Part shown: one piece after another, positions 39,452 to 55,677 of the stretch
How positions within the stretch are numbered: the stretch's first letter is position 1
How the letters are laid out: the number at the start of each line of letters is the position of its first letter
Assembly (NCBI GenBank): GCA_020353195.1
Contig: CP070691.1
Span: 1,705,894-1,769,893, forward strand
Source of the DNA: Phycisphaerales bacterium
Lineage (GTDB): Bacteria > Planctomycetota > Phycisphaerae > UBA1845
DNA length: 64,000 bases
Direction: 5' to 3'
Made by a program: the position numbers and the translations under genes
The notes under the pieces: generated by a model
What the model was told of the DNA's origin: nothing
The model's database searches: none
The model's input: only the letters and a program-made list of their open reading frames with translations

Positions 39452-41008
39452 GTGAAGGGCATCAGCTTGCTGTGGGGTCTGGTCGCAATCTTCCTGTCGG
39501 CAGGGAACGCGTATTCGGATGAAGACACGGCACGCGGCGTGGTGTTCGAGGACGTCAACGGCAACGGCCTGTGCGACCCGGGCGAACCGGGTGTCGCCGG
39601 TGTGGCCGTCTCCAACCAGGAGCAGGTCGTCGTGACCGGGGAAGACGGGCGCTACGCCCTTCCCGTCACGGACGACACGATCATCTTCGTCACCAAGCCC
39701 TCGGGCTATGCGGTCCCCCTGGGCAAAGACAATCTGCCCCGCTTCTACTACGTCCACAAGCCGAACGGCTCACCCAAGCTGTATCATCGCGGCGTCGGCC
39801 CGACGGGGCCGCTGCCGGAATCGATCAACTTCCCGTTGAATCGCCGGAGCGAACCGTCCGCTTTCAAGGTCATCGCGATGGCCGATCCACAACCCGAAAC
39901 GTCGCAGGAGGCCGACTACGTCCGCGACGACGTGCTCAACGAACTGGTCGGCACCGACGCCGCATTCGGCGTCACGCTCGGCGACATCATGTTCGATCAT
40001 CTCTGGCTGTATGACCGGTACAACGACTACGTGGGGAAGATCGGGATTCCCTTCTACAACATCATCGGCAACCACGACATGAACTACGACGCCGATGACG
40101 ATGATGATTCGGACGAGACGTTCCACCGCTACTTCGGTCCCAATTACTGTTCATGGGACTACGCCCGGCTTCACTTCGTCGCGCTGGACACCATCATCTG
40201 GGGCGGAGCGGGCCAGGGCACCGGCCGTTACCGCGAAGGCATCACCGATCGCCAGCTCACCTGGTTGGCCAACGACGTCGGGCACGTCGCGCAGGACAAG
40301 CTGATCGTGCTGCTCATGCACGCCCCGCTGCACACGTTCCGAAAAGACGAGCCCATCCCCGGCACGAAGCGGCTGTTCGACATCCTGAAACACCGCCCGA
40401 AAGTGCTCGCCCTGGCCGGTCACACCCACTTGCACGAACACGTGTTCTTCGACAAGAGACACGGATGGGAAGGCGAGGGCGGGTTTCACCTGCTGATCTG
40501 CGCGGCCGTGTGCGGATCGTGGTGGGGTGGCCCGAAGGATTACCGCGGGATCCCCGTCGCCGACCAGCGCGACGGCATCCCCAACGGTTACGTCATCCTC
40601 GACGTCAACGGAACCGACTACGTGACGACCTACAAGGCTGCCGGCTTCGACCGCGATTACCGGATGCGCATCTATCCACCGGGCAGCACGGGCAGCAGCC
40701 CGCCGGCACGGAGGGAGCTTCTCGTCAACGTCTTCGACGGCAGCGAGCGGTCGAATGTGGAGTACAGCCTGGACGGCGCCGAGTTCGTTTCCATGACGCG
40801 AACTCCGCAGCTCGATCCTCTGGCCGAGGCGATGCTGTCGGGCGTGATGAAGTCCAGCAAATCCTGGGCCGGTCCCGCGCCCTGCCCGCATATGTGGGAA
40901 ACCACCCTGCCCGAACCGCCCTCCCGCGGAACACACGTGGTGACGATCCGTGTCACCGATCATTACGACCGCACGTACGAGCAGTCGAAGATCTTCGTCT
41001 ACCGGTGA
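39452..41008 (+). CDS. secreted calcineurin-like metallophosphoesterase, three domains
   Basis: A 518-residue exported phosphoesterase. A signal peptide (ISLLWGLVAIFLSAGNAYS) is followed by a small SdrD/Cna-B-like beta domain (GVVFEDVNGNGLCDPGEPG, DGRYALPV). The calcineurin core has ADPQP, GDIMFDHLWLYD, IGNHDMNYD, LLMHAPLH and GHTHLHEH, all metal ligands present. The C-terminal ~140 residues are a beta domain ending in THVVTIRVTDHYDRTYEQ. This N-core-C layout is known for Metallophos_N / Metallophos_C proteins of Bacteroidetes and Planctomycetes. GTG 39452 has GGAGGAG upstream. Substrate unknown. Confidence 0.9.
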   Translation: MKGISLLWGLVAIFLSAGNAYSDEDTARGVVFEDVNGNGLCDPGEPGVAGVAVSNQEQVVVTGEDGRYALPVTDDTIIFVTKPSGYAVPLGKDNLPRFYYVHKPNGSPKLYHRGVGPTGPLPESINFPLNRRSEPSAFKVIAMADPQPETSQEADYVRDDVLNELVGTDAAFGVTLGDIMFDHLWLYDRYNDYVGKIGIPFYNIIGNHDMNYDADDDDDSDETFHRYFGPNYCSWDYARLHFVALDTIIWGGAGQGTGRYREGITDRQLTWLANDVGHVAQDKLIVLLMHAPLHTFRKDEPIPGTKRLFDILKHRPKVLALAGHTHLHEHVFFDKRHGWEGEGGFHLLICAAVCGSWWGGPKDYRGIPVADQRDGIPNGYVILDVNGTDYVTTYKAAGFDRDYRMRIYPPGSTGSSPPARRELLVNVFDGSERSNVEYSLDGAEFVSMTRTPQLDPLAEAMLSGVMKSSKSWAGPAPCPHMWETTLPEPPSRGTHVVTIRVTDHYDRTYEQSKIFVYR

Positions 41009-42178: not shown

Positions 42179-45100
42179 CTAATCCGTTGAGAACAGCCGC
42201 TGGAACACCCAGAAGTCGGCCAGGTCGATGTTGTCGTCCACGTCAGCATCGAAGGGTTCGCAGCCGGCGGGTGGTTCGGTGGCGCCTGGACCTGTGACGC
42301 AGGACTCAAAGGCCGCGTAGTCGGCTAAGTCGACGTCGCCGTCGGCATCGGAATCGCCGAACGGGACACTCACCGCCGGGACCCGCGCGATGCGGAAGCC
42401 CAGCTGATCCAGTGCCCAGCCCGGACCCGCGAACTTCCGCTCCGTCGTATCCACACCTGGCCCGGAGCTGTCGCCGTAATTCCAGCCGCCGCCGCGCATG
42501 GCCCGCGTCGTCAGTCCGTAATGGTCCTGCATCCATTCGAACACGTTGCCCGTCATGTCATACAGGCCATACCCGTTGCTCGTGGCGTTGGTCACGAAGC
42601 CGTCGTGGGTGGAGCCGTCGTAATACGCCACGAAGGTGGTGCCATTGTCGAACGGGTCGCCGCTGTCCTTCCAGTTCCCGTCGGCAGAGGTAGGAGGTCC
42701 GCTTCGGCCGTAGCCGTAGATCGTATTCTGGTTGAGGTCGGAGCGCCATGCGGCGGCCTTGTACCATTCGTTGTACGCGTCGGCCCCGAACGCATTGTTG
42801 TCCATCGGCAGGCGAAACCCGCAGTAGCCGGTGACGAGAGCCTGCCGTTCGGCATCGTTCATGAAGCGGCTGGTCCAGTCGGCCTGCGTCACGGTGACCG
42901 GCCTCCAGGCGTCCAGGTCCGCGCTGCTGCCTTCTCCGTAACAGCGCTGACCGGGGCCGTACTCCTGGTCAATGGTGAGCCAGTTGCAGAATTTCACTGC
43001 GCCGTACCACGAGACGCCGGCGACGGGATGCTGCTCGAACTCGGCGCCGGTCATCTCGTACGACACGCCGTTGAACGATATGCGCCCGCTGACCCCGGCG
43101 TCAAAAACGAGCGTGCCTGATCCGTCGCTGCCCACGGCACCCGTCGGCTGCGAATGGATGTACACGTTGCCGCTGTCAGTATCGTGATAGAGGTATTGGC
43201 CCCGTTCGTCACCCGGGTTGCTCAGAGCGTCGTTCAAGAAGGTGAGGAACTGCGCATTGGTGATCTCACAAACGCCGATGGTGAAGTCATAGGTGGGCCC
43301 GTTGGGCTGGGTGTCGGCGGCGGGAACGGTCGCCATCACCGGTGGAACCATCACCGCCTGGGGGAGCGTCACGGTCATCGCCAGATCGGTCGTCCCCATC
43401 CCGTTGCTGGTGACGTTCTCGAACCTGACCTGGCATGCCTGGTCCGTCGAGAACGTGCTCGCGACGGAGGCATCGAGGGTGACCCGCACGCGGGCCGATT
43501 CGTAGGGCCCCAACACACCGGCCGCTCCCAGACCGTAATTGATCCACACCCAGTCGCACTCCGGTTCGACGATGGTTACGGCGTAGGCGTTGGCGTCCGC
43601 GTCATAGTTGGTGATGGTGTAGACCTGCTCGAATGGGACCAGCGTTCCGTCAGTGGCGAGGTGGGCGTGGATACCCTCCGGCGGATCGACGGCGATGTGC
43701 GGCCCGATGGTCAGGATGACGCTGCGTGTCTGAACGGCCCCCGTGTCGAGGTCTTCGAAGCTCACCGTGGCTTCGTGCATGCCCTCGGTAAGCGTGGCGG
43801 CTTGTTCGCCGTCAATCGCTACGGTGACGGTGACGGGCAGCCCCGGGGACACGCTGCCGCCGGCCGTCGCCTGTCCGTTGATCAGGACCCAGTTCGCATC
43901 GCACGATGCGATCCAGTCTATGGGGTAGTCGAACCGGTTTTCGATCGTGTAGTCCTTGCTCAGCGGACTGATGACGCCGCCGTATTCGCCGGCGGCATAC
44001 AAGGCGCCGGGCGGGGTGATCTTGAGCGGGTCTTCGATGATCAACGTCACGGTTCGTGTGATCTCGCTGCCGGCGGTGACGTTAGCGAACGTAACCGTGC
44101 CGAGGTAGGTGCCGACCGCCAGCACCTCAGCCCCGGAGTTCACGGAGACGGAGACCGTCTGGGTGTTTGCCGGTCCGGGGTCCAGCGTCGTGTTCGGGAC
44201 CGACACGCCGCCGTTGAGGCTGATCCAACTCCGGTCCGACGTGACCGAGTACGTGATGGGCATGGTGAGCACGTTGGTCAGGTCGTAATCCTTCGGGTCG
44301 GCAGCGACGGGCGTTTCGAAGAGCGTGGTGACCTCATAGCCTTCGTCGGGGCTGACCTGGAGGGGCTCTCCGACGGAAAGCTCGACGGCGCGGGTTTCGG
44401 CATAGCCGGTGGTCAGGTTCTCGAGCGTGATGGTGGCGGCGTACTCGCCGGGGGCAAGCGTACCGGCGTCCGCGTTGAACGCGACCTCGACCGACGGCGT
44501 GTCCGCCGACGTCAGCTCGCCCGTCTGCTCGCTCAAGCCGTCGACTGCAACCCACGGCTCGTCCGAGTTGACGCGCCATTGCATCGTCGAGGCCGACTCG
44601 CTCCGAATGTCATACGTGATGCCGCCGGGGACGAATGGACCGCCGAAGAGTCCCGACGCAATCAAACCATCGTCGGGCGTGAACGACAGAGGCTCCCACA
44701 CGAGCAAGCGGGCCTGGCGCGTGAACGTCTCGCCGGTCGTGATGTCCGAGACACTCAGTGTGGCGACATAGTCGAGTTTGGCCTGTACGACGCGGAAGCC
44801 GGTGAACGCATCCACCTGCCCGGGCGGTCGGGTCTCGCGCCCGTCGGCCCGCAGCGCGAAAGCCGATACGTCGTCACCCCAGCTGCCGCCGCGAACGGCG
44901 CGATCGGACGGCCCTGCGCCGAAGTCCTGCATCCATTCGCGGACGTTGCCGGTAAGGTCGTAGAAGCCGTTGCTGGTCGCGGTCGTCACGAACCCCTCGT
45001 GCGTGGATCCGTCAAAATAGCCGACGGCCGTGGTGCCGTTGTCCATCGGGTCGCCGCTGTTGCCGTAGTTGGCATCGGCGCCGGTCAGCGCGTTCCGTCC

Positions 45101-48100
45101 GAACCCGTAGAGGGTATTCGACGTTCCGTTCCAGGCCGCGGCTTTGTACCACTCGTTGTAGCGAGACGCGCCCGCGGACGCGTGGTCCATGGGCAGGCGG
45201 TATCCGGCGTAGTGCTCCACCAGCGCCAGGCGCTCGTCGTCGTTCAGATCGCGAAATCCGGAGCTCGTTGCGTCGATGACGACGGGATGCCAATCGGCCG
45301 GATCATTCCCCTCGGTATACGCGCGTTGGCCCGGACCGAGTCCGTCCGCCAGCGTCAACCAGTTGCAGAACTTGACCGCGCCATACCAGCTCACGCCGAC
45401 CACCGGATGGTTTTCTAGGCCGTTGGTCGACACGTACCGGGATTCATCTTCGTCGTAGACGATAGCTCCGCCGGTCGCTCCGTCGAACACGAGCGTTCCT
45501 GAGCCGTCGGTGCCCACCTGCCCGTCCACGCCGCCGGCGTTGATGTAGACGCGGTCGTCATCCGTGTCGTGGTAGAGGTATTGGCCGCGGGCGTTGGCGC
45601 AGTTGACCAGCGCATCGTTGAGGAACTCCACGAAGTCGACGTTCGTGATCTCGAAGCCGGCCATCCGGAACGAATACCGCGGGCCGCCCGGCTGGTCCTC
45701 GGTGACCGGTACGGTGGTCATGATCAGATACGGCGTCTCGGGGGGCATCAGGTTCGCGGCGTCCGGCGCCAGGGCGATTGTCAGGTCTCTGCTGCCGCCC
45801 CAGGGAATGACGCCCGACACCTGCTGCCCGCCGTCGATCGTGACCCAGGGTTGATCGACGCAGGCCGACCATTCGATCGGCGCGTCCGACTCGTTCTCGA
45901 GCGTATAAGCAAACTGCGGCGGCTCGAAGGCGCCGCCCGCCGGACCCGCAGCACCGTAATTGCAGTCCGGTTCGCTCCCGCAGGCCGTCGAGGTGACGGA
46001 CACCGGCGTCAGCGTGCCGGCCTGCAGCACGCGGAAGCCCGTCCACGCGCGCGTCTGCCACGTGTTATCGATGCTTACAGCGAGGTTGTTCAGGGCGGCG
46101 GCGGCCGTGTTGGACCAGTGCCCGCCTCGGGTCGCCCGGGTGTCCGACGCGATGCCCCAGTCCTGCACCCATTCGCTGACGTTGCCGCAGAGGTCATACA
46201 GGCCGTACCGGTTACTCGTGTCGTTGGTGGCAAACGCGCCGTACGTCGTGCCGTCGTAATAGCCCACGGGGGTCGGACCGTCGTCGTACGGATCGCCGCT
46301 GTTCTCGTAGTTCGCGTCGGCTGCGGTCAACGTGTCGCGCCCGAATCCGTATACGCTGTTCGCCGTGCCGTTCCACGCCGCCGCCTTGTACCATTCGTTG
46401 TAGAGGCTCGCCCCGGCCGCACCGTCGTCCATGGGCAGGCGGTAGCCGGTGTAATCGATGACCAAATCGAGTCGCTCGGCGTCGGTCAGGTCGTCATCCG
46501 GGACGGTGGCCACGACAGGATACCAGTCTTCCGGCGCGGTGCCTTCGTTGTAGACCCGCTGCAATTCATCGCCGCCCTGAACGAGTGTCAGCCAGTTGCA
46601 GAACTTCGCCGCGCCGTACCAGCTCACACCGACGACCGGCAGCTCCTCGTCTCCCGGCGCCACCGTGTACCCGTCGGTGACGAATGAGATCGCCTGGCCG
46701 TCACTCGCATCGAACAGCAGCGTGCCCGAACCGGTCGTCCCGTCGTCCCCGACGGACCCGTTACTGTTGATGTAGACGTCACCGGTGTCGGTGTCGTGAT
46801 ACATGTACTCGCCGCGGCCGTTCGTGCGGCTGTCGGCGCGGAACGCGCTGTTGAGGAACGCGGCGAACTCGGCGTTGGTGATTTCGTACAGCCCGATGCG
46901 GAACGTGTGCAGGGGCCCGCCGGGCTGACCATCGTCTGCGGGCACGATGGCCATCGGGATCGTCAGCGGCGCGTCGCCCACCGTGAGGGTGACCGTGCGC
47001 ACCGCGCTGCGCCCTTCAGTGGTTTCCTCGAACACGACCGTCGTGTTCAGCACCGTACCCGCGGGCAGGGCGCTGACCTGGGCACCATCAAACGATAGCG
47101 TGACGTCGGCACTGACGTCGGGGCTCAGAAAGCCGCTCGCCTGCGCCTGACCGTTGGCAAGCACCCACGAAGCGCCCGGCGTCACCGTCCAGCTCATCGG
47201 GCGGCTCGGTTCGAGATCGTTGACGATCCGGTACAGCTTCGTCGCGGGAACGAACGGGCCGCCCACCGGACCGGCGGAGTCGAACGGGGCTGCCGGCGTG
47301 ACCGTCAGTGAATCTGTCAGGCTGAGTTCGACGGTGAACACCGCGAACGTGCCCTCCAGATCGCTGAAGGTCAGCGTCGCGGTCTGGGATTCGGTCAATG
47401 AGTTGGCGATGGTCTCATCCAGCGTGACGGACACGCTCACGCTTTCGAAGGCGTCGAGTTGCCCCGAGCAGGACGGTGCCCCATCTACGAGCAGCCAACT
47501 CCGGTCGGACACGATGTCCCAGTCGATCATCTTCCAGCATGCGTTTGTGACGGTGTATTGAAGCGACGCCGGGGCAAACGGACCGCCCTGCGGACCGCTG
47601 AACCCCGTAGTCGTCACGTCAACCGGCTCGGCGGCGGGAGAAATGTACGGCGACGAGTGGGCGACCCGGAAGCCATGCCAGTATCCCGGCCCGGCCATGA
47701 TCGAACTCTCGATCGTCGTCGTGGTCGTGATGCCCGCGACGCCGAACTCGTAGTAACCGCCACGGGCTCGCCGCCAGGTCGGCGAGCCGATCTGATCCTG
47801 CACCCATTCGAAGACGTTCCCGCTCACGTCGTACAGACCATAGAGATTGTCCGTGTCGTGTGTCGCAAACGCAGGCGAGCCCGGAAAGAAGTGATCAGCC
47901 GGATAAGCCGTGCCGTCATACATTCCCGCAGGCGTGGTGCCCGGCTCAAACGGATCGCCGCTGCTCCAGTAATTGGCGTCCTGGGCGTCGGCGACGTCCC
48001 TTCCGAACCCGTACTGCGTGTTGCCGGTCCCGTTCCAGGCGGCGGCCTTGTACCACTCGTTGTACGGACTCGCCGTGATCGAGTATTCGTCCATGGGCAG

Positions 48101-48724
48101 GCGATACCCGAGTACGTCGCTGACCAGTGCATCACGTTCGCCGGCGTTGAGGTCCCGCGTCTGCCAGTCCGGCGTCGTGATGCTGACAGGATGCCAGTCC
48201 TGCGTAGTGCCGCCCTCGGTATACGCCCGTCGTTCCGCTCCGAGTCCGCGGTCCAGCGTCAACCAGTTGCAGAATTTCACGGCCCCGAACCAGCTTACGC
48301 CCGTGACCGGATGATCCCCGTCCGCGGCGTCAACCACGTAGACCCCGGCCTGATACTCGATCACGGCGCTGGCCGCCTCGAACATCAGCGTGCCGGAACC
48401 CCCGGTCCCCGCAACACCCGTCTGCGCGGCGTGAATGTACACGTCGCCGCTGTCGGTGTCGAAGTACATGTAGTGACCGCGCTCGTTGGTCAGGTTGTTC
48501 AGGGCGTCGTTGAGAAATGCGGTGAACTGGGCGTTGGTGACCTCGTAGAGTCCGATGGCGAAGTCGTACGTCGGGCCGTTCGGCTGAGCATCGCCGCCCG
48601 GGACGTCGGCCACCTCCATGACGACCTGCGGGTCGGCCAGGGCACCGGCTGGCACGGTTACTGACAACATCAGCGTGCCGACGGACCGCAGAAGCAGTCG
48701 GTGCCGGAGTCTGGACGCATCCAT
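42179..48724 (-). CDS. giant secreted protein with four SUMF1/FGE-like modules, BACON-like domains and dockerin-like tail
   Basis: A 2181-residue exported protein. A signal peptide (LRSVGTLMLSVTVPAGALA) opens it. Four SUMF1/FGE-sulfatase-fold modules lie at about 41-356, 585-901, 1000-1315 and 1790-2118. Each has E(V/I)TNxxFxxFLN, VGVSWxGAxKFCNWLT, YRLPMD, NEWYKAAAWNGT, a D(V/L)(S/C)GNVxEW block and GFR(V/I). Between them are about seven ~110-residue beta domains with a repeated GGPF.P...Y...N....W....W.....G pattern, like BACON domains. The tail has two loops, DSDADGDVDLADYAAF and DADVDDNIDLADFWVF, resembling dockerin repeats. The C-terminal Cys pair needed for FGE catalysis is absent from all modules, so formylglycine synthesis is unlikely; a binding or structural surface role is inferred. 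ATG 48724 is chosen because the frame beyond it overlaps another gene. Confidence 0.88.
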   Translation of the reverse strand: MDASRLRHRLLLRSVGTLMLSVTVPAGALADPQVVMEVADVPGGDAQPNGPTYDFAIGLYEVTNAQFTAFLNDALNNLTNERGHYMYFDTDSGDVYIHAAQTGVAGTGGSGTLMFEAASAVIEYQAGVYVVDAADGDHPVTGVSWFGAVKFCNWLTLDRGLGAERRAYTEGGTTQDWHPVSITTPDWQTRDLNAGERDALVSDVLGYRLPMDEYSITASPYNEWYKAAAWNGTGNTQYGFGRDVADAQDANYWSSGDPFEPGTTPAGMYDGTAYPADHFFPGSPAFATHDTDNLYGLYDVSGNVFEWVQDQIGSPTWRRARGGYYEFGVAGITTTTTIESSIMAGPGYWHGFRVAHSSPYISPAAEPVDVTTTGFSGPQGGPFAPASLQYTVTNACWKMIDWDIVSDRSWLLVDGAPSCSGQLDAFESVSVSVTLDETIANSLTESQTATLTFSDLEGTFAVFTVELSLTDSLTVTPAAPFDSAGPVGGPFVPATKLYRIVNDLEPSRPMSWTVTPGASWVLANGQAQASGFLSPDVSADVTLSFDGAQVSALPAGTVLNTTVVFEETTEGRSAVRTVTLTVGDAPLTIPMAIVPADDGQPGGPLHTFRIGLYEITNAEFAAFLNSAFRADSRTNGRGEYMYHDTDTGDVYINSNGSVGDDGTTGSGTLLFDASDGQAISFVTDGYTVAPGDEELPVVGVSWYGAAKFCNWLTLVQGGDELQRVYNEGTAPEDWYPVVATVPDDDLTDAERLDLVIDYTGYRLPMDDGAAGASLYNEWYKAAAWNGTANSVYGFGRDTLTAADANYENSGDPYDDGPTPVGYYDGTTYGAFATNDTSNRYGLYDLCGNVSEWVQDWGIASDTRATRGGHWSNTAAAALNNLAVSIDNTWQTRAWTGFRVLQAGTLTPVSVTSTACGSEPDCNYGAAGPAGGAFEPPQFAYTLENESDAPIEWSACVDQPWVTIDGGQQVSGVIPWGGSRDLTIALAPDAANLMPPETPYLIMTTVPVTEDQPGGPRYSFRMAGFEITNVDFVEFLNDALVNCANARGQYLYHDTDDDRVYINAGGVDGQVGTDGSGTLVFDGATGGAIVYDEDESRYVSTNGLENHPVVGVSWYGAVKFCNWLTLADGLGPGQRAYTEGNDPADWHPVVIDATSSGFRDLNDDERLALVEHYAGYRLPMDHASAGASRYNEWYKAAAWNGTSNTLYGFGRNALTGADANYGNSGDPMDNGTTAVGYFDGSTHEGFVTTATSNGFYDLTGNVREWMQDFGAGPSDRAVRGGSWGDDVSAFALRADGRETRPPGQVDAFTGFRVVQAKLDYVATLSVSDITTGETFTRQARLLVWEPLSFTPDDGLIASGLFGGPFVPGGITYDIRSESASTMQWRVNSDEPWVAVDGLSEQTGELTSADTPSVEVAFNADAGTLAPGEYAATITLENLTTGYAETRAVELSVGEPLQVSPDEGYEVTTLFETPVAADPKDYDLTNVLTMPITYSVTSDRSWISLNGGVSVPNTTLDPGPANTQTVSVSVNSGAEVLAVGTYLGTVTFANVTAGSEITRTVTLIIEDPLKITPPGALYAAGEYGGVISPLSKDYTIENRFDYPIDWIASCDANWVLINGQATAGGSVSPGLPVTVTVAIDGEQAATLTEGMHEATVSFEDLDTGAVQTRSVILTIGPHIAVDPPEGIHAHLATDGTLVPFEQVYTITNYDADANAYAVTIVEPECDWVWINYGLGAAGVLGPYESARVRVTLDASVASTFSTDQACQVRFENVTSNGMGTTDLAMTVTLPQAVMVPPVMATVPAADTQPNGPTYDFTIGVCEITNAQFLTFLNDALSNPGDERGQYLYHDTDSGNVYIHSQPTGAVGSDGSGTLVFDAGVSGRISFNGVSYEMTGAEFEQHPVAGVSWYGAVKFCNWLTIDQEYGPGQRCYGEGSSADLDAWRPVTVTQADWTSRFMNDAERQALVTGYCGFRLPMDNNAFGADAYNEWYKAAAWRSDLNQNTIYGYGRSGPPTSADGNWKDSGDPFDNGTTFVAYYDGSTHDGFVTNATSNGYGLYDMTGNVFEWMQDHYGLTTRAMRGGGWNYGDSSGPGVDTTERKFAGPGWALDQLGFRIARVPAVSVPFGDSDADGDVDLADYAAFESCVTGPGATEPPAGCEPFDADVDDNIDLADFWVFQRLFSTD
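42370..48600 (-). repeat. four in-gene copies of the SUMF1/FGE-like module
   Basis: Module copies at about 47655-48600, 46020-46970, 44780-45725 and 42370-43350 share strong protein similarity and many identical DNA stretches (for example the YNEWYKAAAW coding segment). They are interleaved with seven beta-domain copies. Such repeats may recombine and are prone to misassembly. Confidence 0.75.
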
Positions 48725-49176: not shown

Positions 49177-49217
49177 TCGTGCCCGCGCAAGGGATGGATA
49201 CCGGAGCCAGAAACCCG

Positions 49218-50681
49218 ATGAGCTTGCGGCAACGTGCAGTACAGGGGGTGGTCTGGTCCGCGATCCAGAACTGGGGTTCCAATCTGCTGTCGATGGCGGT
49301 CTTCCTCGTGCTGGCGCGTCTGCTGATGCCCGAGGCGTTCGGGCTGGTGGCTCTCGCATCTGCGTTCACGGGGTTCTTGGCCGTTTTTCTTACGCAGGGG
49401 TTCGGTGGAGCCATCGTCCAGCGGTCGGAGCTGGAACCGGAGCACCTCGACACGGCGTTCTGGATCAACGTGCTCAGCGGTGTCGCGCTGACGGCCATCT
49501 GTATCGCTTGCGCCGGCGTGGTCGCCCGGTTGTTCGGTGAACCGCAGCTCAAACCGCTTGTCCGGTGGCTTTCGCTGAGCTTGCTGATCGGCGCGTTCAG
49601 CGCCACGCAGGAGGCGATCCTCATGCGTCGCCTGGCCTTCAAGAGCCTGGCGATTCGCAGGCTTGTGGCCTCCGCAGCCGGGGGATGCGTGGGGATCGGG
49701 ATGGCGGTGGGTGGCCTCGGCGTCTGGAGCCTGGTCGGGCAGAACCTCGCCGGCGGTCTGGTCGGCGTTGCCGCATTGTGGCAGGCCTCTGAGTGGCGTC
49801 CGGGCTTCAACGTCTCTGCGAAGCACGCCAGAGACCTGTTCTCCTTTGGCATCAATATGCTCGGGATCCAAATCCTGCGCTTCGTGAACCGACGAGCGGA
49901 TACCATGTTGATCGGGTATTTCCTCGGGCCGGTGGCACTGGGCTATTACACCGTTGCCTACGGGCTGCTCTTACGAATGACACAGATGTTGATGCAAACG
50001 GTCTCGTCCGTCTCGCTGCCAACGTTCTCCCGCCTCCAGCATGACCCCGGCCAGATGCGCCATGCCTTTTTCACCGCCATCCGCATGACGAGCCTGCTGG
50101 CTTTTCCCGCCTTCATCGGCGTCGCGACGCTGGCACCGGAGCTGGTCCCGGGGCTGTTCGGATCAAAATGGACGCCGAGTATCCCGGTGATGCAGATTCT
50201 CGCGCTGATCGGGATTCTCCAGTCCGTCCAGTACTTCAACGGGTCCGTCATCCTCGCCATGGGGAAACCTTCGTGGCTGCTCGCACTGAGGGCCTTGAGC
50301 ACGGTCGTACATGTGACGGCCTTCGCTGTAGCCGTACGTTGGGGAATCGTGGCCGTCGCCGGAGCCTTTGTGATGTCCGGATACATCCTCTCACCCCTTC
50401 CGGCATGGATGGTCCACAAGCTTATCGGTGTCAAGCTGACGAGGTGCTTCTGGGAGTGCGCGGCCCCGCTGGCCGCGTCCCTCACCATGATGGTCTGTAT
50501 CTTGATCAGCAGGGCGCTGCTGGATGAGTCGATGAACTTGTATGCCGTGCTTAGCTTCTATATAATTTCAGGGGCTCTGGTGTACGTGAGCGCGATCCTC
50601 GTGATTGCACCCAATCTGCCGCGGGAGGTAATGGACCTGGCTCGTTTGGCTGTTTCCGGTCAGACGACAGACAACGCATGA
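49218..50681 (+). CDS. Wzx-type polysaccharide flippase (MOP superfamily)
   Basis: A 487-residue polytopic inner-membrane exporter for lipid-linked oligosaccharide units. Beginning SLRQRAVQGVVWSAIQNWG, with LVLARLLMPEAFGLVALA soon after, it matches the Wzx/RfbX/PST branch. About 12-14 hydrophobic helices can be counted, including SYNTENY-neutral markers such as GPVALGYYTVAYGLLLRM and VMQILALIGILQSVQYF. ATG 49218 has GGAG eleven bases upstream; ATG 49194 is an alternative. It starts a plus-strand run with FkbM, GT2 and sulfotransferase genes, consistent with export of a modified surface glycan. Confidence 0.9.
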   Translation: MSLRQRAVQGVVWSAIQNWGSNLLSMAVFLVLARLLMPEAFGLVALASAFTGFLAVFLTQGFGGAIVQRSELEPEHLDTAFWINVLSGVALTAICIACAGVVARLFGEPQLKPLVRWLSLSLLIGAFSATQEAILMRRLAFKSLAIRRLVASAAGGCVGIGMAVGGLGVWSLVGQNLAGGLVGVAALWQASEWRPGFNVSAKHARDLFSFGINMLGIQILRFVNRRADTMLIGYFLGPVALGYYTVAYGLLLRMTQMLMQTVSSVSLPTFSRLQHDPGQMRHAFFTAIRMTSLLAFPAFIGVATLAPELVPGLFGSKWTPSIPVMQILALIGILQSVQYFNGSVILAMGKPSWLLALRALSTVVHVTAFAVAVRWGIVAVAGAFVMSGYILSPLPAWMVHKLIGVKLTRCFWECAAPLAASLTMMVCILISRALLDESMNLYAVLSFYIISGALVYVSAILVIAPNLPREVMDLARLAVSGQTTDNA

Positions 50682-51006
50682 TCTCCGGACGGGAGCTTGC
50701 CCCGTGTCCGCTGGAGCGGGAGGGATGGAGTGCATCTCCGCAAGACGTAATGGGGTCGCGCGACTTCCGGCGTCGCCCCGAAGTTCTGGAAGGACCCCGG
50801 CGACGCTTGCGGAGAGACGCCCGAGACGATCCCGTTCGCGGCCCGCCGACACGGTGTACGGCCCCAAGCCGGCGCGCACTCCCGCACGGATGACAAGGTG
50901 GCAAGGTTCAGGGGCCCACGGTCCTCCCGTGCCGCACCCACGCGAGTGATTGACAAGGCCTGGCACCGGCGTTCCGGTCCGACACGTGACCCGGTCGCTC
51001 GAGTGT
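50682..51006. other. 325-base spacer, flippase to FkbM gene
   Basis: No gene recognised. If the FkbM frame is taken from its TTG at 50950 the spacer shrinks to 268 bases. Short frames on both strands look like chance. Confidence 0.35.
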
Positions 51007-51903
51007 ATGCCAGGGGTGGTCCGTTATGTTGCGGTTGATTCCGGATTCAGAGGACGTGAGGTGATCGGCGGGCGTCCCAGATACTACAGCCAAGCCGGGG
51101 AAGACTTCCTGCTGTGGAAGCTCTTCAAGTTCAGACCCAGTGGGTTCTATGTGGACGTAGGCGCCTTCGATGGCGTTCATCTCAGCAACAGCTACTCGTT
51201 CGAGCTGGCCGGCTGGCAGGGAATCTGTATCGAGGCGAATCCCGACATGCTCGAGCGATGCAAGGTCGCTCGCCCGCGCTCGACGTGCCTGGGCTGCGCC
51301 TGCGTCGCGACCGACCAGATCGAGCCGGTCGAGTTCTGGTGCGAACCGCTCGGGCTGCTCTCCAGCCTGCACCCTGACGCCGCAGACGTTTCCGCCCGAT
51401 ATGAAAAGCGCGGTCTCACGTTCGAGGGGTTCGAGAGAATCAGGGTGCCGGCGATGACGCTCGACACGATCCTCGACGAACAGCTTCCGGAGGGCACCCC
51501 GCTTGACTTCGTCTCGATCGACGTGGAAGGCACGGAACTCGACGTCCTGCGCGGATTCGACCTCAAACGGTATCGCCCTCGCGTGGTTGTGATCGAAGCC
51601 AACACCGAAGAGCGACGCCAGGCACTTTGCCAGCACCTGGTCGACGAGAACGACTACATTGAAGCGCGTCGGCTCGAAGTGAACCTGTTCTTCGCTCGGG
51701 ACCGCCGGGACGCGGAACGGCTGAGGCGCATTCGGGTTGCATGCTGGATCGAGCCGACGATCCACCCACTGGGAGACAAGTTCACAATGAAGGAACGTCG
51801 CCGCCGGCGGTACATCGGGCGGACCAGAACGCAACAGTGGCTCTCATGGCGGCGCCCCATGGGCATCATCCGGAAACTGCACGCCATGCTCCGCTCCCCA
51901 TAA
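51007..51903 (+). CDS. FkbM family methyltransferase
   Basis: A 298-residue SAM-dependent methyltransferase. The family start SQAGEDFLLWKLFKF leads into the SAM loop FYVDVGAFDGVHLSNSYSFE and GICIEANPDMLERC. The later block RVPAMTLDTILDEQL and DFVSIDVEGTELDVLRGFDL is the FkbM signature. It likely O-methylates a sugar in the surface glycan. The start is uncertain: ATG 51007, TTG 50950 and GTG 51061 (with AGAGGA upstream) are all in frame. The C-terminal ~45 residues are strongly basic. Confidence 0.87.
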   Translation: MPGVVRYVAVDSGFRGREVIGGRPRYYSQAGEDFLLWKLFKFRPSGFYVDVGAFDGVHLSNSYSFELAGWQGICIEANPDMLERCKVARPRSTCLGCACVATDQIEPVEFWCEPLGLLSSLHPDAADVSARYEKRGLTFEGFERIRVPAMTLDTILDEQLPEGTPLDFVSIDVEGTELDVLRGFDLKRYRPRVVVIEANTEERRQALCQHLVDENDYIEARRLEVNLFFARDRRDAERLRRIRVACWIEPTIHPLGDKFTMKERRRRRYIGRTRTQQWLSWRRPMGIIRKLHAMLRSP

Positions 51904-51920
51904 ACGATACAAGGGCGACA

Positions 51921-52796
51921 ATGAGCTCAGGAGACAGCCTCAAGATAAGCATCGTGATGGTGGATGGCGCCTTCAGGGAGCAGTTTCACACGGTTGACTT
52001 CCTCGCAAGGCAGACCATTCCTGCGGATCAGTACGAGTTGCTTTGGATTGAATACTACGACACCGTCAAGGCGGCTCTCGAGGAAAAGATCCGGCGCCAG
52101 CCCGGCTTTCGGATCGTAACGCTCGGGAGACAGGGAACCTATCACTCCTCGTACTGCTTCAATGCGGGCATCGAGGCGGCTCGGGGCGAGTTACTCGTCA
52201 TTCTCGACGCGGATGTCGTGGTTGAGGACGATTTCCTTGAAACCGTGCTTCGGGAGCATCGAGCCAATCCGAGGCTCGTCATGTATGTTTCCCGCTATGA
52301 CGAGCCGGAGGACCAGCACCTCCCCGATACTCACCGCGACCGTCTACGCAACGTCTGCCTCTTGAAAAACCCCACGAACTACGGCGGGTGCCTGACGGTC
52401 CGGAAAAAATGGTTGATGAAGATCAACGGGTATGAACAACATCCCGTTTTCGGGACGGGTTTTCACGCGAATGGACTCGATGTGTACACGCGGTTGAAGA
52501 ACCTCGGGTTGCACGTGATGTGGCACCCGGAACTGAAGCTCTATCATCCCTGGCACGAAAGCACAGTGACCAAGGCCGATTCCTACAAGCTGCAACAGCT
52601 CGTTATCAGACATAGGGCCCTCAGCAAGGAGGTTCTTGCCTTTCAGGGCATCGACTCCAGCCGTGACCACGAGATCCCGGCGACGTTGGCAGCAAGGTTG
52701 GAGTCCGCCCGACAAGGCAAGTCCGGGCTCGCGCGGCGCTTCTGCGCGAGAGTCAGAACCGCGCTTCAACGGCATCCAGGAAGTGGATGTGACTGA
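51921..52796 (+). CDS. glycosyltransferase family 2
   Basis: A 291-residue GT-A glycosyltransferase. It shows SIVMVDGAFREQFHTVDFLA at the start, the acceptor-side CFNAGIEAARGELLVILDADV with a DAD metal site, and a late GLDVYTRLKNLGLHVMWHP block of galactosyltransferase-like C-termini. The N-terminal 'VMVDGAFRE' deviates from the usual SVVIPTYN motif. No membrane segments. The gene starts 17 bases after the FkbM stop, with AAGGGCGAC before ATG 51921, so the two are probably co-transcribed. Confidence 0.82.
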   Translation: MSSGDSLKISIVMVDGAFREQFHTVDFLARQTIPADQYELLWIEYYDTVKAALEEKIRRQPGFRIVTLGRQGTYHSSYCFNAGIEAARGELLVILDADVVVEDDFLETVLREHRANPRLVMYVSRYDEPEDQHLPDTHRDRLRNVCLLKNPTNYGGCLTVRKKWLMKINGYEQHPVFGTGFHANGLDVYTRLKNLGLHVMWHPELKLYHPWHESTVTKADSYKLQQLVIRHRALSKEVLAFQGIDSSRDHEIPATLAARLESARQGKSGLARRFCARVRTALQRHPGSGCD

Positions 52797-52920
52797 TCGG
52801 GCGCGGCATGACGTCGCCGTGCAATCGGCGCAGGTGCCCAGCGCAGTCCCGCAGGACCGCACACCGGGCCCCGGGGCCGAACCGAGGTGAAGACCCGCCC
52901 CGGCAGAGGAGTGCCGATTC

Positions 52921-53889
52921 ATGAAACCAGCAACGCGCCTGCCACCCGAAGTCGGGCTGCGGTCGACGCTCAGAGCCGACCGCTTGACCTATCGGCCGAA
53001 AAGACGCCCCTTGACCGCGCGTCGCTTGTGGCGCACGCTCGTCCCGAACTTGCGGTCCCCCATCTTTCTCATCGGGGCACCCCGCTCCGGAACCACGTTT
53101 CTCGGAGAGTGCATCAGCGTCCTTCCGGAAGTCTCGTACCACTTCGAGCCTCTGATGACAAAGGCGGCAGTACGGCATATTCACGCGGATGAGTGGCCCC
53201 TCGCGGCGGGCCAAGCCCTTTTTCGCCGCGTTTACAGGTGGTTGATGCGCATACACCTCGATGCGGACCTGCGCTTCGCGGAAAAGACGCCGCGCAACAG
53301 CCTCATCGTCTCGTTCCTGCGGGAGGCCTTCCCGGACGCCCAGTTCATCCACATCATCAGAGATGGGCGAGACGTCGCGCTGTCTCTCAGCAGGAAGCCC
53401 TGGCTCCGTGCGTCGACCGGCGAATCCGAGACAAGAACTGGGGGCACCGACGATCACGGCCATCACGCCCACTTCTGGGTCGAGAAGGCGCGAGCCGCGG
53501 AGTTCGAAACCACGACCGATATCCATCGCTGTGCGTGGGCCTGGCGACACTTCACCGAGGCGGCACTCGCCCAGTCGGCCGGCCTGCCCGCGGGGCAGTA
53601 CCACGAACTGCGTTATGAAAGCCTTGTGGACCAACCGCAGCAGGAGGCGGACCGCCTGTTGGATTTCCTGGGGATCAACGATCCCGCGTCGCGCCGCGTG
53701 TTTTGCGAGGCGGCCGCCGGTGCCAGGGCGACGTCCGTCGGGGGCTGGCGCCGCTCGCTGTCACCTGCACAAGTCAAGCAGATCGAAGATGAGGCGGGGC
53801 CACTCCTTTGCACCTTAGGGTATCCCTGCCCCGGCATCCCCGATCAAGACCCTTGCCCCGCGAAGACCCCGCCGGATCAGGCATTGTGA
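52921..53889 (+). CDS. PAPS-dependent sulfotransferase family protein
   Basis: A 322-residue sulfotransferase. The 5'-phosphosulfate-binding loop IGAPRSGTTF is at residues 51-60, and the 3'-phosphate-binding motif FIHIIRDGRDVALSLS follows near 140-155. The motif CAWAWRHF and YHELRYESLVDQPQQEADRLL complete the Sulfotransfer_3 pattern. It would transfer sulfate from PAPS to a surface glycan or a lipid. ATG 52921 has GAGGAG ten bases upstream. It ends the plus-strand polysaccharide run. Confidence 0.9.
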   Translation: MKPATRLPPEVGLRSTLRADRLTYRPKRRPLTARRLWRTLVPNLRSPIFLIGAPRSGTTFLGECISVLPEVSYHFEPLMTKAAVRHIHADEWPLAAGQALFRRVYRWLMRIHLDADLRFAEKTPRNSLIVSFLREAFPDAQFIHIIRDGRDVALSLSRKPWLRASTGESETRTGGTDDHGHHAHFWVEKARAAEFETTTDIHRCAWAWRHFTEAALAQSAGLPAGQYHELRYESLVDQPQQEADRLLDFLGINDPASRRVFCEAAAGARATSVGGWRRSLSPAQVKQIEDEAGPLLCTLGYPCPGIPDQDPCPAKTPPDQAL

Positions 53890-53962
53890 TATCCCGCGAC
53901 GGCGTCAGGCCTGACCCACGCGAGAAGTCACGAGCGACGGAAGGACCGCGCCCGTGCCAATG

Positions 53963-54006
53963 AAAAAGGCAATCCGGCGATGAGCTCGACCCACCGCCGG
54001 ATTGCC
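53963..54006 (-). terminator. rho-independent terminator of the pseudopilin gene
   Basis: On the minus strand, a perfect 12-bp stem GGCAATCCGGCG / CGCCGGATTGCC (54006-53995 and 53979-53968) with a 15-base loop is followed directly by TTTTTCATT. It begins 43 bases after the pseudopilin stop codon. This is the clearest intrinsic terminator in the window. Confidence 0.88.
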
Positions 54007-54048
54007 TGCGAGTTGCGACTGATCCTACCCGTACCGTCCTGTAGACCG

Positions 54049-54963
54049 CTACGGATAGATCAGGGCATCCGTCGTGCAGTATTGCCCGGTCGCGAACGCA
54101 TCCATACCAGGGAACCACGTCGTGATGAAGTCGATCGTCCCTCGTATGCGGACCCAGTTCTTCTCGACACCGGTGTTCGGCACGAACGCCGTGTAAATGT
54201 TGTCGTTGTCGATGCCCGCAATGGGCTTCCGCTCGAACGTGGCATGAGCGTCGGCAAACAGGCAGTTCTGGCCCTCGCCCTGCCCGCGGCCACCGTGGTT
54301 GGGCGAGTTGAAACCGGTCCACTCGCTGGGCGAGGAGTTGATCAGGATGGTGGTCGCGATTTCGTTCAGCTTGTTGGCATCAACCGCGCCGCTGCTGATC
54401 GGCCCCTTGTCGGCGGCGACGATCATTCGACTGTCCAGACTCTCGCTCGGGCGGGTGTCGGTCGGCCCGTAGGGAACCTGGTAACCGTAGCTGATGTGCC
54501 CCAGCCGGTAGAAATCGTAGTACATGTCAATCGGCGACGTCGGGTCCGTGGTGTCGCCGGAACTCGGGCAGATGAACTGTTTCGGCGTCACCTCGCCCGT
54601 CCGGACCAGGATCCAGAAGCACCGCGTCGTCGACAAGGTCGTCGCCGTGGCGTTGGATATGACCGCGCGGCCGGGAGCCGGATTCGCCGCCGTACCTTCA
54701 TCCGCGGAGTCGGTGGGCAGATCCACCCAGTACTTCGGCACGTCCTTGGCGACATTGAACTCCGCCAGAGGCCAGGACTCCTCGTTCTCGTTCGCATAGA
54801 TCTTGCACGAGGTTCCCAGACCCTTGATGTTCGCTGCACATACCAACCGCTTGCTGAGCTCGCGCGCCCGCGACAAGCTGGGCAGGAGGATGGAGATCAG
54901 CAGCGCGATGATCGCCACCACCACCAGCAGCTCAATCAGTGTGAACGCCTTCCTACCTTTCAC
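54049..54963 (-). CDS. planctomycete-type pseudopilin with H-x-G-x-G / FADxH C-terminal motif
   Basis: A 304-residue type II secretion-like pseudopilin. The N-terminus [20 protein letters not shown] is a prepilin cleavage/methylation motif with Glu at +5. [20 protein letters not shown] follows, as in the large planctomycete family with N-terminal methylation sites. Near the C-terminus [19 protein letters not shown] is the H-x9-DG-type block. It is probably cut by a prepilin peptidase and displayed at the envelope. GTG 54963 has AGGAGG eight bases upstream. It is monocistronic, with its own terminator. Confidence 0.92.
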
Positions 54964-55677
54964 TGGAACACCTCCTGTGCCCTGAGGCACAACTGAGTTT
55001 CCCTCGCCGACGCGCTAGCTGGACAGGGCGGGGATCGATGAATTACATAAGTCCACCGCGCCAGCAATCCGAAAGACAACAACCGAGCGCGGACGTAACG
55101 TGCCCTGTTGCCTGCTCCCGCCGTCGGCTCAACCCACGCCACCGGGACCGCCCCGATGATCCGGGCTGGAGATCACTGCCAAAATCCTGAACCCGGGGCC
55201 AGACGCACCAGGCGCCCGCCGCCATGGACTCAAGAACGCGTTCGCCCTGACTCTGCCGTGACCTTTACCGGTCCGCCGGCATCGCCGTCCGACTCCACCC
55301 CGCTGCCGTCAGCCAGGATGGGCCGCACTTCACCGCTCTGACCGGATGCGTCACCATCCGATCACTGAGCGCAGCGCCAAACTCTATTGGTAGGAGGTAC
55401 GGGTCGAAGGTCGCAAGACGCGGATGAAAGTATTGAGTGCGCTTGTCGCCGCAAAGCGAAAACAAGTATGGATATTGGCGTACGAAAAACCAGTATGTAT
55501 GACCGTACCCGGGATTAATACTCCAATACCCGTTTCCTCACTATCCATCTGAATTCTACTGGCACCGGCCAGACACGTCAATCAGAATCCGCGGTCTCTG
55601 CCGCAATACGACCCCGTGGCCAGTTCAGGCTCGCCCCCCTCCGAACACGCGGCGACGGCCGCCGGCCCCCGACCGCC
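54964..55677. other. 714-base intergenic region with an A/T-richer core
   Basis: The largest gene-free stretch of the window, upstream of the pseudopilin gene. The part at about 55380-55570 is visibly richer in A and T than the rest and carries several ATATTGG/AATAC words and a near-palindrome around CGGGATT...AATACCCG (about 55510-55532). A 42-codon frame at 55424-55552 is not supported by a well-placed ribosome binding site. Confidence 0.5.

Follow-up and report, generated by a model that had tools for sequence, protein, structure and literature searches.

Here we ask what a single secreted bacterial protein might do with four modules of the FGE/SUMF1 type and seven BACON-like domains, a combination encoded by one open frame within the 64,000-nucleotide stretch of DNA that we analysed (the window). 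We consider it reasonably likely that the product is a secreted, multivalent surface-binding protein, its binding, surface location and docking all being putative. The four FGE-type C-type-lectin folds, each without the cysteine pair of FGE, would act as recognition heads, the seven BACON-like Ig sandwiches would provide stalk and spacers, and dockerin-like calcium loops at the C-terminus may tether the protein to a partner at the cell surface.

The first-pass annotation of this locus described a secreted protein of 2181 residues, and the frame, the strand (minus) and the length were all borne out. The mechanical ORF extends upstream to 49906; we prefer the ATG at 48724 as the start because a signal peptide, read by eye as MDASRLRHRLLLRSVGTLMLSVTVPAGALA-D, opens there and is preceded by AGGGGAG ∼11 bases upstream. 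Promoter and terminator scans did no better than on shuffled sequence. The domain order obtained by computation is signal peptide, M1, B1, B2, M2, the first part of B3, M3, the second part of B3, B4, B5, B6, B7, M4 and a dockerin-like tail, with M for modules of the FGE/SUMF1 type and B for BACON-like Ig domains (Table 1).

Table 1. Features of the gene and its product, in window positions.
Feature	Residues	Window positions	Strand	Basis
Whole gene, secreted multi-module protein	2181 aa	42179..48724	(-)	
Signal peptide	~1-31	48632..48724	(-)	read by eye
M1, FGE-type C-type-lectin module	33-356	47657..48628	(-)	Pfam, module alignment, profile
B1, BACON-like Ig domain	366-470	47315..47629	(-)	beta profile
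B2, BACON-like Ig domain	470-583	46976..47317	(-)	beta profile
M2, FGE-type module	584-902	46019..46975	(-)	Pfam, module alignment, profile
B3 first part, beta profile positions 10-87	919-996	45737..45970	(-)	profile, structure
M3, FGE-type module, predicted to be nested inside B3	997-1316	44777..45736	(-)	profile, structure model
B3 second part, beta profile positions 87-111	1318-1342	44699..44773	(-)	profile, structure
B4, BACON-like Ig domain	1342-1452	44369..44701	(-)	beta profile; modelled
B5, BACON-like Ig domain	1451-1563	44036..44374	(-)	beta profile
B6, BACON-like Ig domain	1563-1674	43703..44038	(-)	beta profile
B7, BACON-like Ig domain	1672-1786	43367..43711	(-)	beta profile
M4, FGE-type module	1788-2116	42377..43363	(-)	Pfam, module alignment, profile
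Dockerin-like tail, two EF-hand-like loops	2117-2181	42182..42376	(-)	pattern

Four full-length modules had been proposed from shared blocks of residues, and this reading held: there are four matches to the Pfam family FGE-sulfatase (PF03781), with E 2.9e-75 over the protein as a whole, and ExTN, GVSW, NEWYKAAAW and GFR are present in every module, the one correction being that M4 reads NEWYKAAAWRSD where ...AWNGT had been given. Pairwise identity among the modules is 49.0-56.2%, which argues that they are old duplications rather than copies created during assembly, and no tandem array was seen in the DNA.

The beta domains are BACON-like. The Pfam BACON_2 model (PF19190) scores 24.8 bits in this protein, just short of its cut-off of 25; it reaches 41.2 bits in the orthologue L059. 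With a profile derived from beta domains in this protein and in its relatives, the earlier count of seven proved correct, provided that B3, which M3 splits in two, is counted once. BACON has been proposed as a spacer, and 4ZMH is a GH115 structure with BACON/BACON_2 (PMC11216935). The beta domains described here resemble those of 4ZMH and BoGH5A in fold and probably in Pfam family, but differ from them in being present in seven copies, one of which is split by an inserted module.

That M3 is nested inside B3, a feature absent from the first-pass annotation, is well supported by profile matches and a structure model. M3 interrupts the beta profile at position 87, and just before M3 the beta match breaks off at profile position 76-86 in 18 of the 20 relatives with a short M2-M3 linker. 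In 17 of the 19 proteins in which a next beta domain was found, this protein among them but not L062 and L081, 25-27 residues lie between M3 and that domain; of 48 other junctions from a module to a beta domain, 47 have -1 to 7 residues. Joining the two halves of B3 raised the score from 72.3 bits for the first part alone to 90.0 bits, and in 10 of the 18 proteins tested, again including this one, no more than 2 of 200 control joins scored as high as the joined halves or higher; the test was not clear in the other eight, some of which have divergent host domains. A first structure model of residues 903-1455, built from 19 rows, had a pLDDT of 72 and was poor in M3 (26-43 in places), and already placed both halves of B3 in one sandwich (107 residues aligned to 4ZMH at 2.4 A). 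Because M3 was poorly modelled, a deeper alignment of 86 rows was used for a second, AlphaFold model of residues 903-1346, which reached a pLDDT of 93.3 and a pTM of 0.83. Residues 673-788 of 4ZMH, its BACON region, align to this model over 110 residues (2.3 A, Z 13.1) that are spread over model residues 1-444, so that one Ig sandwich is predicted to form from both halves, with M3 in the link that leads into the final two strands of B3. Spliced in at this point, M3 would leave and return to the same place; with both ends meeting, it would project sideways from the stalk and lie close to M2 as a pair. We regard this as a well-supported case of an FGE-type head nested inside a BACON-like domain.

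Structure prediction of the B3-M3 region also gave the fold neighbours of the module, where rows within 1 Z of each other are treated as ties. The nearest fold to M3 is TvpA (2y3c; Z 23.7, 2.4 A, 214 residues), tied on this rule with CarF (5aoh; Z 23.3), followed by PorK (Z 21.2) and, 2-4 below the leaders, by the true FGEs (Streptomyces FGE, Z 21.1; human FGE, Z 20.0-20.2), then by SUMF2 (19.4), EgtB (19.1) and Mtd (12.9). Sequence profile comparison likewise placed TvpA first; Foldseek alone gave long, high-rmsd rows that were less informative than those of VIA-align. That the FGE, EgtB and PvdO structures score only slightly below TvpA counts against the surface-binding explanation. CarF and PorK/GldK share the fold with the modules, but are not four-module arrays on an Ig stalk.

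The resemblance to PorK bears on a mainly structural role, in which the protein would form a cell-envelope or S-layer-like fibre and its modules would make protein-protein contacts as PorK/GldK do in the T9SS ring. In its favour, GldK scores best among NCBIfam models, though far below its cut-off, and the array and its order are conserved; we nevertheless find this role unlikely, given the fast divergence of the M1 and M4 tails described below and a patchy presence, with any module at E<=1e-40 in 33 of the 51 family genomes searched (the source genome among them).

A recognition role places weight on the C-terminal segment of each module, between the RGG and GFR motifs. In human FGE this segment holds the cysteine pair C336/C341 (C-x4-C; numbering from PDB titles), which binds copper. 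The pair had been reported missing from all four modules, and we agree: none of M1-M4 has a cysteine after RGG, and C-x4-C occurs in the RGG-GFR tail of 0 of the 102 modules compared, the pattern present in L059_M1 lying outside this tail. The modules are thus like FGE (SUMF1) in Pfam family and fold, but unlike it in lacking the catalytic cysteine pair and in having an active-site segment that is not conserved. Across orthologues, identity in the tails of M1-M4 is 24, 32, 29 and 28%, respectively, as against 55, 51, 49 and 53% for the rest of the module, and the tail is the stretch of lowest or near-lowest identity in M1, M3 and M4; M2 differs in having a loop that varies more than its tail. 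Among three closer relatives, L072 shares 42-46% identity with L067 and L071 in the M1 and M4 tails (rest of the module 75-80%), and 61-68% in the M3 tails (rest 79%). When L067 is compared with L071, identity in the tail departs little or not at all from that in the rest, and M2 has no such difference in any of the three. In the comparisons with L072, NG86 dN of the M1 and M4 tails is ∼2.4 times that of the rest; tail dN/dS is below 1 wherever dS is defined, with dS often saturated, and positive selection on the tails is not supported. The divergence fits a loss of catalysis, and relaxed constraint fits it as well as diversified recognition does; we infer that the variable RGG-GFR face of the modules would be the part that contacts ligand.

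The suggestion that the modules are non-catalytic binding units stands in part: the cysteine pair is absent and the tail unconserved, yet PvdO and EgtB share the fold without that pair and are enzymes. An alternative is that the modules perform some other enzymatic reaction on the FGE fold, so that the scaffold would bear four catalytic units; it draws on the alignment of FGE, EgtB, PvdO and CalU17 structures to M3 at Z 19-21 and on 20 columns that do not vary in 86 rows. We judge it improbable, since the stretch that makes up the active site in FGE belongs to the least conserved parts at all four positions, the cysteine pair is missing, and a Pfam scan of the 2181-residue protein found no other catalytic domain. 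On a practical level, users should be aware that not every FGE-sulfatase match in this phylum is a sulfatase-activating enzyme.

The closeness of M3 to TvpA, a variable protein of a diversity-generating retroelement (DGR), raises the further reading that the modules are targets of such an element. In TvpA the variable region occupies the C-terminal end of the FGE-type fold, ahead of a nonvariant last strand (PMC5006420). The modules are like TvpA of Treponema denticola and other FGE-type C-type-lectin variable proteins in fold and in the placing of a variable stretch at the C-terminal end, and their tails are among the fast-changing parts; they are unlike TvpA in that no retroelement was found, four modules share a chain with stalk domains, and the variation is slow and not targeted. 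M3 has the FGE-type C-type-lectin fold of a DGR variable protein, but no linked reverse transcriptase was found: RVT_1 is absent from the source genome (78% complete) and from a same-genus genome, and among 21 genomes with a frame of at least three modules none has RVT_1 on the contig of that frame. For the two modules checked, M1 and M4, the tail DNA occurs only once in the genome, so that no template repeat was seen for them. A retroelement-driven diversifier is therefore very unlikely, and we rejected it. In two genomes (G060 and G065) RVT_1 lies ∼16-18 kb from shorter module frames.

At least three modules in one open frame occur in 21 of the 51 family genomes, and four in 15; in a draw across the phylum, none of 391 other genomes had a match at E<=1e-60, the source genome being alone among 392. 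The named relatives are mostly metagenome-assembled genomes (MAGs) assigned to Phycisphaerae, Phycisphaerales or Planctomycetota; one Myxococcota MAG has a homologue with a single module, and weaker homologues occur elsewhere. Most multi-module relatives have the same layout, including the predicted nesting of M3. When position labels are placed on a tree of 102 modules, 15 changes are required, as against a mean of 62 for shuffled labels; the modules cluster by position, and the array is therefore old and arose before these lineages spread. Exceptions to the layout include L068, without a detectable M3, L077, with two modules, and L062, without M4. A further one, L061:1886-10960 (3025 aa), has four modules separated by complete beta domains and 13 such domains in all, and its M1 and M3 are paired in the module tree; that it has neither a nested module nor dockerin-like loops counts against the surface-binding explanation. 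In L067, L071 (7651-8001), L072 and L079, M2 is split by an insert of ∼114-164 residues, a galactose-binding-like domain (PF23759) in L071, which is a further type of nesting among these proteins.

That the gene is an assembly artefact fusing shorter genes is scarcely credible and was rejected, as the scaffold has runs of N elsewhere but the window has none, the four modules are only 49-56% identical, and the same architecture, with at least three modules per open frame, is found in other genomes. Frames at or overlapping other FGE-type genes of the source genome (L020, L021, L023 and L026) do abut N runs, and in L020 an N run in the scaffold leaves the frame fused; assemblies of this genome may break at repeated FGE genes.

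The first-pass annotation overstated the rarity of multi-module FGE proteins, which recur in the source genome, in the family and in another planctomycete, where one 1565-aa frame holds three FGE modules. What is distinctive here is the fixed four-position array with its nested head, not the presence of several FGE modules as such. The source genome has a second multi-module FGE protein (L018:4916-7864; G000:C1 342915-345863) of 982 aa, with three modules of another FGE subfamily (EWYKAAYHYNDG) and an N-terminal dockerin-like stretch. A literature search with a limited set of terms in one library listed no paper on such a protein by title or opening of the abstract.

The C-terminal loops noted at first pass were recovered by pattern as two EF-hand-like, calcium-type loops (DSDADGDVDLAD and DADVDDNIDLAD) that close the protein. 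We call the tail dockerin-like only, because the Pfam Dockerin_1 cut-off is not reached: there is no match at E<=1 in this protein, and the orthologue L059 scores 12.4 bits against a cut-off of 22.9. Among 22 multi-module frames that exceed 1200 aa, 17, this protein included, carry a pair of 12-residue calcium-type loops at the end; L065 has one loop by pattern, and L060, L061, L062 and L078, the last cut by a contig end, have none. The source genome contains 41 Dockerin_1-like matches at E<=0.1, 15 of them flagged as over the cut-off, two of these only together with neighbours in frame. No cohesin was detected in the source genome (78% complete) or the same-genus genome, which counts against the surface-binding explanation; cohesins are present in 33 of the 51 family genomes, and in G067 (contig C98, 78537-78827) a cohesin match lies ∼7 kb from a four-module gene and is a candidate docking partner. 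Surface complexes of cohesin and dockerin have been proposed in other, freshwater Planctomycetes (PMC6461901).

The surface-binding reading brings the protein close to the fibrillar adhesins, which combine stalk domains and adhesive domains in one long chain and for which 27 adhesive domains have been listed (PMC8286594). Stalk-like and putative adhesive domains share one long chain here too, but the heads are interleaved with the stalk, and neither FGE nor BACON is named in the main text of that paper. More generally, we tentatively suggest that in an uncultured clade of Phycisphaerae the cysteine-less FGE fold may have become a fixed four-position recognition array, in which each position is its own lineage, the former active-site segment has turned into a diversified binding face without a retroelement, and one head forms a lateral branch of an Ig stalk domain. 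The protein presents the FGE/C-type-lectin fold as four heads in fixed order along an Ig stalk, here in bacteria represented by metagenomes only, and the four heads and one stalk offer test pieces for what planctomycete surface proteins recognise.

The adjoining 2-hydroxyacid dehydrogenase gene recurs beside the same-genus L111 (72%) and partly beside L121; no other flanking cluster was common to more than 4 of the 20 regions compared. A calcineurin-like phosphoesterase with MetallophosN/C, and with an SdrD_B-like stretch below its cut-off, is encoded at window 39452-41008 and is probably secreted. Directly upstream, on the other strand, genes for a polysaccharide flippase, an FkbM methyltransferase, a glycosyltransferase and a sulfotransferase (window 49212-54993) possibly form a cluster for a sulfated surface glycan.
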